From Pocillopora verrucosa (Eukaryota; Cnidaria; Anthozoa; Scleractinia; Pocilloporidae), in assembly GCF_036669915.1 (NCBI RefSeq), contig NC_089321.1:2074316-2138315 (forward strand): a DNA stretch of 64,000 bases, written 5' to 3'. The translations under genes were made by a program, and so were the position numbers. Below, in pieces: positions 47,831 to 62,758 of the stretch (its first letter is position 1; each line of letters opens with the position of its first letter). The notes under the pieces are model-generated. The model was given only the letters and a program-made list of their open reading frames with translations, did no database searches and had not been told where the DNA came from.

Positions 47831-48357
47831 CTCTCAACATTACCTATAATTTCTGCTTAAACGAAGACTTTTAAAATCATTTGAATGATCATGATTTCTG
47901 ATGGCCGAAGATACTCTTCCATTGAGAAACTGTGTATCCATCAATGGTTCATTCCACACGCCAAATTTGTCAAAGGAAGCGGGAAATCCAAGAGGGTGAC
48001 TTAAGGGATTTTTCTGTTGTTGTAGTGTGTACGTCTGGCTGAGGGTAATTTTTGAAAATGACTGAGTTGTAGGTGACAATGACTGACCGGATTTTGTCAT
48101 CAAAGGTAAATAAAGAGGTATTTTGCAGTCTATTGTTCAAGTCTTGTAAAAAAAACTGATAAGTTAGTACTATTACAAGAAAAACAAACTAATCCACTCC
48201 GAAACTTCTTAAACCTATTAAATCAGCCATTACGTCGATTTTTTGCTGTCAGACCTGTTTGTTGAAGTTTATTTTCGAGACACAGACGAGACCTTTGTTG
48301 AGTAGCTAGGTTTGAGTAAATCAATAATAATGCAACAAACTAAAATATAACGTTTAA

Positions 48358-48363
48358 TTTATT
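48358..48363 (-). terminator. Polyadenylation signal of the peptide precursor gene
   Basis: AATAAA on the minus strand, about 130 bases after the stop codon of the precursor, in an AT-rich context. Confidence 0.6.
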
Positions 48364-48492: not shown

Positions 48493-49915
48493 TCATAACC
48501 GTAGCTTTTTCTGAAACGTAGAAATTTCCGATTTAGCTTATGAATAACGTTTTCAAAATTATCAGAAAAAAAATAATTGAAATATCATATTTATGTGAAA
48601 AATACTGCTAACCGAATTTGAAGGCAACCCCAGATATCACTGGCTTCCTTGCTGAAACGAGGGTCTCAGTTTAGTGATCATGATGGCTTTTACGGATAAC
48701 GGTTAACATTCTAGCCATTTCACGGCTATCAATCAATTCCCTTCCGGGAAATAAAATTTTACGGTTGGCTCTTTTTATGCGACTGACGATATAAATTTGT
48801 TAATTTTCACCATAACTTTTTTAGCCGTTTTCAGGCTGAGGGAGACCCTCTGAAAACGTTACTTCCATGAGTGAAGGGCAGTTTGGATGATAATTACCGT
48901 TACAAATTAATGCAGTAATCCTTTTACAAGTAAATGAATATATATAGACACTCTACCATTATAAGGTCGCCGTCCTCTACTTCTCTCCCAAATTCGATCG
49001 GTGGAATGTATGGAGGAGGTTGAAGATAATCATGCTGAAAGCCAGTAAAAAAGATAACAACAGTAAACTTTTTACCAAAAGGTGTTTTGTATTATCATTA
49101 TTATTATTTTGTCTCGGTTTTTCATATATAATATGACAATTCAGTTGTTTGGATCGCACTATATTGTGAAATATGAGGACCGGGAAAAAAAACACTAAAA
49201 AATTAAAACTTAATTTCGCAATCACAAAAATAAACCAGATAATTTAAAAACTGATTTCATAGTATTGAAAAATTAATTTAGCATTTTAACTAGCGCGAGG
49301 CAAGCAATAGGCATGTATACACGGGCGAACCCATGTGATTGAAATAAAATATCCGTCGAAAAGGGAGGCAGTAAGAACCTAGAATTGATTTGTTACATTT
49401 AATAAAAACGAGAGAGTAAAAGAATTTATGTTGAAGAAAGCACAGTACTATAGACTCCGAATAAAAAAAAGAAGAGCACGATTGAAGGCATATTCGATGT
49501 TAAGACTAGAAACGTTTCCTCAGACCTGCAATGTGAAAGAAGGCAGTTTAAATTTGGAGGATTCTGTGTAAGTCTGAAAATAACTCTAGGTGCTCCCTTG
49601 CTACGTTACGACAAAATATTGCAAAGAGGAAGCTTATACTTTTTGTAACGTATCAGGACGTCTTTGCCATTGTTAGCCAATCGACCTAGATCGCGAAATA
49701 ATATTCGGTTGAGTACTGTTTTATACGCGTTCGAGTGAATCTTGCTACAAACAACTCGTATTAATTCTAATCGTTCTATTTACCATTTCTAGTTGAACAT
49801 CGGCCTCTCTCTTTCTACCAAACTCGATGGGTGGAATGTAAGGCGGTTGTTCATCGTTTTGTTGGGAAAATCCAAAAGTCAAAATAAAACATGTAAGCCA
49901 CACTAAGTATTTCAT
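48493..49915 (-). CDS. Candidate neuropeptide precursor with two EF-amide type peptides, 3 exons, 75 aa
   Basis: Exons 49784-49915, 48957-49034 and 48493-48510 join in phase 0 and stop at TGA. Residues 1-17 (MKYLVWLTCFILTFGFS) are a typical signal peptide. Exon 1 then encodes QPPYIPPIEFGRKRE and exon 2 encodes QPPPYIPPIEFGRE. Each has a Gly amide donor followed by a basic cleavage site, RKR in the first and a single Arg before Glu in the second. Glu precedes the first Gln, as in cnidarian precursors that are trimmed at acidic residues. Sea-anemone RFamide precursors use the same G-R-E pattern. The predicted products are pyroglutamyl or leucyl-glutaminyl peptides ending in Ile-Glu-Phe-amide. 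The third exon adds only KKLRL. There are no cysteines apart from one in the signal peptide. A TATA box and an AATAAA signal support a real gene. I do not know a described family with this motif; function is inferred. Confidence 0.72.
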
Positions 49916-49980
49916 GACTAATGATATATCAATAACCTATCTATGAGTGCTATCCACGGCGAATCTTCCCAAGAATGGGG

Positions 49981-49990
49981 ACTATATATA
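49981..49990 (-). promoter_or_regulatory. TATA box of the peptide precursor gene
   Basis: TATATATAG on the minus strand, 66 to 75 bases upstream of the start codon. This would place transcription start about 40 bases before the ATG. Confidence 0.6.
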
Positions 49991-55345: not shown

Positions 55346-55467
55346 GAAAAGAGTCACGGAAAAGAGTCACGGAAAAGAGTCACGGAAAAGAGTCACGGAA
55401 AAGAGTCACGGAAAAGAGTCACGGAAAAGAGTCACGGAAAAGAGTCACGGAAAAGAGTCACGGAAAA
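55346..55467. repeat. Minisatellite, 13 bp unit, about 9.4 copies
   Basis: The unit GAAAAGAGTCACG is repeated head to tail without a mismatch. Perfect identity points to recent expansion. It lies about 1 kb upstream of the PTB-domain start codon. Confidence 0.95.
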
Positions 55468-57345: not shown

Positions 57346-58323
57346 TTAAGATGCTCTCTCCGTTCCCATGGTAGCAGAATCAGAAGTATGTGGATTCTGG
57401 CCTCGGTTGAAAGAGCCGGCCTGGGGCTGAATTTGGCGAGAAAGTTTAATTAGTTTTCTTAGCCCTGTGCGCATGTCTTTACTCCTACCAAAGTTCAGCA
57501 AAGGATTTAAGAATGCATTAAGCTGGAGGAAGAATGTATAAAAAGGCCTGTAAGCGCTTAAACTCATTATGCCTAACAAGTGCAAAATAAGCGGAGACAT
57601 AAGAGCTGGGAGAAACGTCAGGAACAATACCACGAGGATTATCCCCACAGTGACTGCAATTCTCCTCTCCCTTTCCAATGAAGGGCGCAATTGAGTTTCA
57701 GTGGGATTCATTTTCTTTGAGAATATGCCTATGTAAGAGATAATGATAACAAGGAAGCAAATAAGATAGAATAAAAGAGCAGAAACATTTCCGTAAGGAA
57801 TCATATCTAACTCTACCAGAAGTACCGCCAAAATGCATATCACCCATGTTACGAGAATCTTGACAATAGCACGGTATCTAGTCACGTTACTGCGATACCA
57901 CCAGGGTTTTCTGACTGCTAGGTATCGATCTCTACTTATCAATGCCAAGTTTGCAAGCGTGGCATACAAACACAGAATAGATGTCGCGTGAGATAAGCGC
58001 GAGGATACACCAGAACCACCCGAAGGTGGGCACATGTATTTGTCGGCTATCGCCGATACATCTCTAAAGATAGAATATGAGGTATACAACAAGTCAGTTA
58101 CTGATAAACTACACAGCATCAAAAATGAAGGACTTTGCAACGATCTATTTCGCGTTACGGTGAACACCACAAGCGCGTTACAAAAAAACCCAATTACGGC
58201 CAAGAGCATGCCCATTGGTCGGACACCGTAGTTGGTGAAGTCTCGCAGTTGATGCTGGGTTTCCTGTGGAATATTCTGGACAAGACATGCTTGGTATGGA
58301 AGCTGGGTCAAGTTATTGGCCAT
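57346..58323 (-). CDS. Rhodopsin-like (class A) G protein-coupled receptor, single exon, 325 aa
   Basis: Seven hydrophobic segments are visible, starting at about residues 38, 69, 112, 152, 180, 225 and 263. An N-linked site (NLT) follows the start. TM1 has the conserved Asn in FFCNALVV, TM2 has the Asp in SVTDLLY, TM3 ends RDRYLAV (DRY), and TM7 has NPLLNF in place of NPxxY. TM6 lacks the usual CWxP and has TFLP. It is a plasma-membrane receptor with unknown ligand; intronless class A receptors are expanded in anthozoans. The start codon chosen leaves a short N terminus. An AG acceptor just upstream of the ATG (near 58336) suggests a 5' untranslated exon. It is 3.4 kb from a second receptor of another subfamily, on the same strand. 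Confidence 0.9.
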   Translation of the reverse strand: MANNLTQLPYQACLVQNIPQETQHQLRDFTNYGVRPMGMLLAVIGFFCNALVVFTVTRNRSLQSPSFLMLCSLSVTDLLYTSYSIFRDVSAIADKYMCPPSGGSGVSSRLSHATSILCLYATLANLALISRDRYLAVRKPWWYRSNVTRYRAIVKILVTWVICILAVLLVELDMIPYGNVSALLFYLICFLVIIISYIGIFSKKMNPTETQLRPSLERERRIAVTVGIILVVLFLTFLPALMSPLILHLLGIMSLSAYRPFYTFFLQLNAFLNPLLNFGRSKDMRTGLRKLIKLSRQIQPQAGSFNRGQNPHTSDSATMGTERAS

Positions 58324-61771: not shown

Positions 61772-62758
61772 CTACAACATTTCAGATGGCCCTTGATTCA
61801 CGTTTGCAGCGATACTTTTGCGGACAGATCTTAGTTCAAAGTTTCTTTCACGCCTTCTCGAGAGCTTTGTTAATGCATCCTTAAAAAGAGGCATCCTAAG
61901 GCTGTACACAAACGGATTTGCCATAGAGTTTGCCAAACGCAGAGCACTTGCAAACCAAATCACTGGTGCAGGAAAGCATAAGCAGAACTCTTTCGTAATG
62001 TTCACAGCAAATGCTGGTAGCCAAAAAACCAGCGACACAGTAGCTACTACAAAAAATGTCCTTGAGTGTCGCAAGCTCTTTTCTACGAACTGTTGGTTGC
62101 GATGGACCATTAATCCAGATGCTGGTTTCCTACTTCGCAATCGAGTTCGGATAGTGAAGTAGCTGGCACAAATAATCACCAGAGAAATGAAAAGAGATAT
62201 GCTAGTGGCGACAACGACATTTCTTTTCTTTACAGCTGGGTAGTACAACTCCATCAAAGACATTCCACCCAAACAAAGTCCACCAGCCCAAACTAAAATA
62301 ATGCTGGAGATGTAAAGAGATGTCTTTGCTACGCGATGACGAAGAGGCCACAAGACTGCATAAACACGTTCAAGCGAGATAAGGGCTAGGAAAAACACCG
62401 ACGTGGCAAAAGCGAGGACTTGGGTAGACGTAAACAAAAGGCTCAACAAATTCTTCATATTCCCTTTTTTTCTTCGTCCAGCTGCAGTCACTCCTTGGAA
62501 CTTTGAGACACCGAGAATGATCGGCTCTGTTATTCCCACGAGTAAGTCACAAACTGCAAGGTTAATCAAAAGGTAACAAGTTCGTTTAAGACGGAATCGT
62601 TGAGTCCAAAAGACAAAAATAGTAAAAGGGTTTCCAATGACGATGATTGCCGCTTCAACTACGTAGATAGCAATGAATATCAAAGCGACTTCCTTAGACA
62701 TTTTGTCTTTCTGTGGCTGTTTCTTCCCCAGAGGCCGATAAATTTTCAGTAAAAACAC
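61772..62758 (-). CDS. Rhodopsin-like (class A) G protein-coupled receptor, single exon, 328 aa
   Basis: Seven membrane segments. TM1 has IGNPFTIFVFW (GN motif), TM2 has NLAVCDLLVG, TM3 ends LERVYAV (E-R-V in place of DRY), TM6 has VFWLPAF (FWLP), and TM7 has NPFVYSL (NPxxY). The third cytoplasmic loop is basic and the C-terminal tail is Arg-rich. The first Met adds 19 residues, KIYRPLGKKQPQKD, before a second Met (MSKEVALIF) that may be the true start, since TM1 begins right after it. The position equivalent to Cys3.25 is Ser, so the usual disulfide between TM3 and the second outer loop appears absent. It is an orphan receptor, probably amine-, purine- or peptide-like; the ligand cannot be told. 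Confidence 0.9.
   Translation of the reverse strand: MFLLKIYRPLGKKQPQKDKMSKEVALIFIAIYVVEAAIIVIGNPFTIFVFWTQRFRLKRTCYLLINLAVCDLLVGITEPIILGVSKFQGVTAAGRRKKGNMKNLLSLLFTSTQVLAFATSVFFLALISLERVYAVLWPLRHRVAKTSLYISSIILVWAGGLCLGGMSLMELYYPAVKKRNVVVATSISLFISLVIICASYFTIRTRLRSRKPASGLMVHRNQQFVEKSLRHSRTFFVVATVSLVFWLPAFAVNITKEFCLCFPAPVIWFASALRLANSMANPFVYSLRMPLFKDALTKLSRRRERNFELRSVRKSIAANVNQGPSEML

Follow-up and report, generated by a model that had tools for sequence, protein, structure and literature searches.

Our results suggest that a small gene in a 64-kb stretch of the Pocillopora verrucosa genome (64,000 nucleotides, here called the window) is the preprohormone of a stony-coral family of X-Pro-Pro...Glu-Phe-amide signaling peptides, and we consider it likely that these peptides would be released from neurons or neurosecretory cells. 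The original prediction, made from the DNA letters, had proposed a precursor of amidated peptides. This reading is supported as a whole by a spliced product, by relatives that keep both the motif and the processing site, and by conservation focused on the predicted peptide. Secretion, cleavage, amidation, cell type, and receptor are the parts that we infer.

The coding sequence lies on the minus strand and is 228 bp long (75 codons plus the stop), divided into three exons by two phase 0 GT-AG introns. Exon 1 (positions 49784..49915, minus strand) encodes MKYLVWLTCFILTFGFSQQNDEQPPYIPPIEFGRKREADVQLEM, which comprises a signal-peptide-like leader and the first peptide copy (QPPYIPPIEF-GRKRE), and is followed by the donor GTAAAT of the 749-nt intron 1 (49035..49783, minus strand). 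Exon 2 (48957..49034, minus strand), flanked by the acceptor TTTCAG and the donor GTAGAG, encodes HDYLQPPPYIPPIEFGREVEDGDLIM with the second copy (QPPPYIPPIEF-GREVE), and beyond the 446-nt intron 2 (48511..48956, minus strand) the acceptor TTTCAG leads into exon 3 (48493..48510, minus strand), which encodes a short basic tail, KKLRL, and the stop. Joined in this order, MKYLVWLTCFILTFGFSQQNDEQPPYIPPIEFGRKREADVQLEM, HDYLQPPPYIPPIEFGREVEDGDLIM, and KKLRL make up the 75-residue protein, whose N terminus is hydrophobic as judged by hydropathy alone (KD mean of 2.31 for the 10 residues that start at residue 4) and whose residues beyond position 25 include no cysteine. As predicted, the motif PPYIPPIEFGR occurs once in exon 1 and once in exon 2. 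The prediction had also placed G-R after both copies; Gly and a basic residue do follow each, but the site is dibasic only after copy 1 (GRKRE), copy 2 having a single Arg (GREVE).

The signals proposed at the two ends of the gene could both be located. The TATA-box-like element TATATATA (49983..49990, minus strand) starts at 49990, 75 nt 5' of the ATG. An AATAAA (start 48363) overlapping an ATTAAA (start 48358) lies at 48353..48363 on the minus strand, about 130 nt after the stop, outside the interval first noted (48493..49990) and identified by consensus match only. Such polyadenylation-like hexamers also occur upstream of the gene (50031) and in intron 1 (49403), so that a hexamer by itself means little.

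Among public predicted proteins, a search that returned 7 proteins from 9 candidates gave as its best match P0001, a 75-aa protein 97% identical to the window protein over its full length. P0001 agrees with the reading of all three exons, confirms both splice junctions, and ends in KKLRL. Because its frame requires the removal of two introns, P0001 derives from a transcript that was spliced, or from a copy of such a transcript; its source label, "lgn," we take to denote an assembly of public reads. It differs from the window protein by two changes, GRKSE for GRKRE and GREAE for GREVE, both outside PPYIPPIEF-GR. The exon reading together with this full-length product bears out the predicted 75-codon gene in three phase 0 exons, and the absence of any transcript across the junctions, named beforehand as a refuting outcome, is contradicted by P0001. 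An alternative frame for exon 3, using a donor a few bases later and ending in YGYDEGSD, was ruled out, since P0001 ends in KKLRL and a paralogue described below has EKLRL at the same place.

The two copies of the motif appear to have been held constant at the protein level. Their 11 core codons differ at 5 bases, all of them silent, an outcome with a probability of about 8e-4 if changes were random; the flanks differ while the motif is kept, as had been claimed. In the 64-kb window, this gene and a 13-bp minisatellite were the only places where an 11-residue sequence with G[RK] at its end is repeated exactly on one strand within 1.5 kb, and a chance repeat was rejected, 20 first-order Markov windows having yielded 0 comparable repeats. 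The minisatellite (55346-55467; 9.4 copies of the 13-bp unit GAAAAGAGTCACG with 100% matches) is open on the plus strand and so mimics a repeated peptide. The small size of the gene and the degeneracy of some relatives could also suggest a chance open frame or a pseudogene, a hardly credible explanation that is contradicted by the spliced full-length product, the silent-only changes in the core, and the relatives in other genera.

These relatives were recovered by profile searches at E ≤ 10, which gave 24 proteins from 1,663 candidates and 23 from 4,130 candidates. Pooling three protein searches gave 29 ids, consisting of one unrelated plant protein (P0024, E 5.3), which was dropped, several that are either near-copies of the window gene or its paralogue or read-through fragments of them (P0002 being the window gene's own protein), and relatives, most of them without a named source. 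The named ones are from Porites lobata, P. evermanni, P. harrisoni, and Oculina patagonica, and all are labeled unnamed, hypothetical, or uncharacterized. Precursors of the family hold one to four units each, with up to three amidable units in P0013; Oculina LOC144659615 isoform X2, a 135-residue precursor, has four units, one of them degenerate. The exon 3 tail KKLRL is similar in position and sequence to EKLRL... of the paralogue (EKLRLLREE...) and to EKLR... of Oculina (EKLRSLRFKK...) and some Porites relatives (EKLRDHRHQ), other Porites relatives having EKQR.HHHQ. A scan of IMG/VR for the unit pattern gave 19 matches, none of them a relative. The original prediction depended on orthologues that keep the motif and G-R, and a similar motif followed by Gly-Arg or Gly-Lys is indeed kept by the relatives from the two named genera, Porites and Oculina. 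Porites and Oculina represent the two main stony-coral lineages. Because they sit in separate main lineages, the family probably predates the split between the two, as far as these sequences indicate.

A second gene (L003) lies in the same 353-Mb genome, 134 kb away and on the opposite strand. By inspection it has three phase 0 exons and would encode MKYLVWFSCFTYVCGLLESPHPDNGRLSYTSVDSDVKRFE, EKENQPPYIPPLEFGRKREVPLL, and EKLRLLREERDEKRRF, and the public protein searches gave no spliced record of it. TATA elements stand 79 nt (TATATATA) and 75 nt (TATAAA) upstream of its ATG, and its intact unit ends in LEF-GRKRE. Alignment with the window gene at the DNA level (blastn, E ≤ 0.01) is confined to the initial 29 nt of exon 1 and the motif in exon 2; nothing aligned in the 300 nt of upstream sequence, in either intron, or in the last exon and the 500 bases downstream of it. 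The peptide core differs at 1 of 11 residues, and a further 6 codons (against exon 1) or 5 codons (against exon 2) differ silently. Exon 1 of the paralogue (L003 596-715) also holds a degenerate unit, GRLSYTSVDSDVKR, which resembles the first, likewise degenerate, unit in the Oculina precursor, EKLSYVLMVKFSTKRD. From their sequences, the paralogue and the Oculina precursor may be orthologous, with the window gene on a separate branch. In the surrounding 268 kb, of which 6,692 bases read N, a unit profile was used to look for more copies in frames of at least 15 residues; it found only the three known units at E < 0.1, the next match being at 0.75. The protein searches set a lower bound of at least two genes in this genome.

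To describe the peptide unit itself, we listed 35 nonredundant units by hand, with the limits of degenerate units set by eye and with P0001, P0002, P0003, P0005, P0018, P0020, P0021, P0022, and P0026 left out as near-copies, read-through fragments, or isoforms. Gly followed by Arg or Lys is kept in 27 of the 35, as GRKR or GKKR in 26 of these, and 8/35 units are degenerate. The pair before this Gly is EF in 20 of the amidable units, EM in 2, and EV, EY, ES, KT, and ET in 1 each. The EF ending is thus present in 20/27 units with the site and in 0/8 without it, a contrast (Fisher p of 2.7e-4) that is indicative only, the units being related and chosen by eye. A Pro-Pro start is found in 15 amidable units and absent in 12. 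A second set of 23 units was picked by a regular expression in which the penultimate residue must be E or K, which makes the residue counts from it partly circular. Among these units, 18 have an acid at most 3 positions before X, 16 have X-P-P, and X is R, Q, or G in 17; P0027 and P0028, which also match the expression, and near-copies were excluded from this set. The most conserved part of the family is the predicted peptide together with its processing site. A small structural or matrix protein of the mucus or the skeletal organic matrix, with fortuitous Pro-rich repeats and uncut at GRKR, could account for the location of the repeats in separate phase 0 exons, which is common in structural proteins too. 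Such a protein is nevertheless very unlikely given the retention of Gly and basic residues just described, the loss of the EF ending in units that lack the site, the very small size, and the lack of any Pfam domain in P0001 or P0013 at E ≤ 0.001.

In a preprohormone, the leader would direct the protein into the secretory pathway, where a prohormone convertase would cut behind the basic residues on the C-terminal side of each PPYIPPIEF-G, these residues would be trimmed by a carboxypeptidase, and peptidylglycine amidating monooxygenase would convert the Gly to the amide. Trimming at the N terminus would proceed past acidic residues as far as a protected start of the form Q-P-P or X-P-P. The predicted product of exon 1 is pGlu-PPYIPPIEF-amide ([M+H]+ 1182.619; 2+ 591.813), and that of exon 2 would be pGlu-PPPYIPPIEF-amide ([M+H]+ 1279.672; 2+ 640.3397). 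The second is less certain because its single-Arg site (GR-E) lacks the Rxx-R pattern with which monobasic cleavage has been reported and because no acid adjoins its Q (L-QPPPY, compared with E-QPPY in copy 1). The source of the peptides would be peptidergic neurons or neurosecretory cells, and their target would be a G protein-coupled receptor (GPCR).

The sites agree in the main with what has been described for cnidarians. Gly with basic residues on the C-terminal side is the classical signal for convertase cleavage and amidation, and on the N side of cnidarian precursors, trimming removes acidic or other residues until it reaches a Q, X-P, or X-P-P start (PMC7523074; PMC11087051), X-P-P being an N-terminal protecting group (PMC7523074). 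The window gene has both the C-terminal signal, with GRKSE at copy 1 in P0001, and a protected N terminus, and the acidic-then-X-P-P pattern of the units fits the N-terminal cleavage seen by mass spectrometry in Nematostella (PMC11087051). A weak point is that the first site of P0001, GRKSE, is R-K only: the C-terminal sites given for the Nematostella mass spectra in the sections of PMC11087051 used here are KR, RR, KK, and Rxx-R, and RK is not among them; another screen counts RK as a cleavage site (PMC12440616). Cnidarian precursors with a single copy are known too. Similar copies are present here (two in the window gene and one intact in the paralogue), but these are few for a cnidarian precursor, which counts against our reading, as does the acidic residue adjoining the C terminus, unusual for an amidated peptide. 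The HIRamides were doubted by Koch and Grimmelikhuijzen partly for acidic residues (PMC7523074), and Thiel et al. described two HIRamide receptors, with EC50s of 2.1 nM (raised baseline) and 190 nM (PMC11087051).

The same products could be processed and secreted without being neural, as proline-rich antimicrobial or mucus-defense peptides from gland cells. A small precursor that combines processing sites with proline-rich repeats would suit such a role, as would the birth and decay of copies, known from defense-gene families. Proline-rich antimicrobial peptides are cationic and Arg/Pro-rich. The three predicted products examined carry a net charge of -1 to 0, however, and conservation falls on EF and on the residues for amidation and convertase cleavage, which makes a defensive role unlikely.

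If the gene encodes signaling peptides, the closest in style are the hexacorallian HIRamides (FHIRamides), going by the published sections and tables drawn on here. Their precursors likewise hold repeated amidated peptides with internal acidic residues, several with Pro-Pro starts and some, like the exon 1 peptide, starting with QPPY (pQPPYLDL..., GPPYIDL..., and NPPIDL... in the table of PMC6756747). HIRamides, however, end in FHIR-amide and are 14 to 19 residues long, whereas the coral peptides mostly end in EF-amide, are about 10 to 11 residues long, and have a PPYIPP-like body; HIR, and with it the FHIR/YHIR-amide C terminus, is absent from all 35 listed units. Coral GLWamides share the protected N terminus (Q, R, or G before Pro-Pro) and the amide, taking the form G-, R-, or pQ-PPGLWamide in 6/7 species listed in PMC7523074, but they have another body sequence and a GLW C terminus, which none of the 27 amidable units has. 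Antho-RFamide/QITRFamide precursors resemble the coral family in a Phe-amide end and a pGlu start; they differ, as far as the sources used describe them, in yielding Arg-Phe-amides, mostly in many copies, in contrast to the Glu-Phe-amides and one to four units found here, with Glu before Phe in 20/20 Phe-ending amidable units.

For one Nematostella precursor, the products are given as "EFamide, LMamide and NAamide" (PMC12440616), and the coral gene might be its orthologue. The name matches the C terminus and both would be anthozoan, and the two, which can be compared by name only from that source, may be related. Orthology is nevertheless distinctly unlikely: neither profile search returned a protein labeled Nematostella, although most rows were unnamed, and none of the 27 amidable units ends in LM or NA. 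In open-access PMC texts, with figures and supplements outside the search, YIPPIEF, IPPIEF, PPYIPP, IEFamide, and PPIEFGR were absent, the 27 texts that came up containing no more than the letter string "ipplef," and "EFamide" with "Cnidaria" led to PMC12440616 alone. The coral amidated-peptide family, as predicted from its sequences, therefore seems undescribed in those texts, in line with the claim that no family of this kind had been described and with the Nematostella precursor as the one possible relation.

How such a family could have been passed over is suggested by the main hexacoral survey (PMC7523074), according to the sections of it used here. Seven neuropeptide families are described there for corals, from seven scleractinian species, and the coral families listed do not include PPYIPPxEF peptides. 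According to the Methods, the script required three or more sites and three or more similar copies, a rule by which both the window gene and the paralogue would be missed, whereas the Results speak of two or more copies, by which the window gene might not be. TBLASTN searches and regular expressions derived from known peptides were further parts of the survey.

The window contains two uninterrupted frames for class A GPCRs (PF00001), at 57346-58323 and 61772-62758, both on the minus strand. The nearest solved structures are ACTH/melanocortin receptors for the former and, more weakly, adenosine, serotonin, and S1P receptors for the latter. With over 1000 GPCR genes in a Nematostella genome (PMC11087051), nearness is not evidence of pairing, and for pairing of the peptide with these two receptors we found no evidence either way. 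Other features of the window are an uninterrupted frame with a PTB/PID domain (PF14719/PF00640; 53764-54360, minus strand), a hAT transposase C-terminal dimerization domain (PF05699; 20530-21126, plus strand), an exon-like frame for the central domain of S-adenosylmethionine synthetase (PF02772; 16674-17126, minus strand), and a trypsin-domain fragment (PF00089; 41690-41992, minus strand).

Many coral neuropeptides and receptors remain unidentified (PMC11269664). We regard it as an even question whether the X-PPYIPPxEF-amides are an overlooked stony-coral neuropeptide family with tiny precursors of one to four copies, older than the Porites/Oculina split and having its own receptor. This raises the possibility that small low-copy precursors escape screens based on copy number. 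A further coral family with exact predicted masses would be directly testable, and it may bear on contraction, settlement, or spawning.
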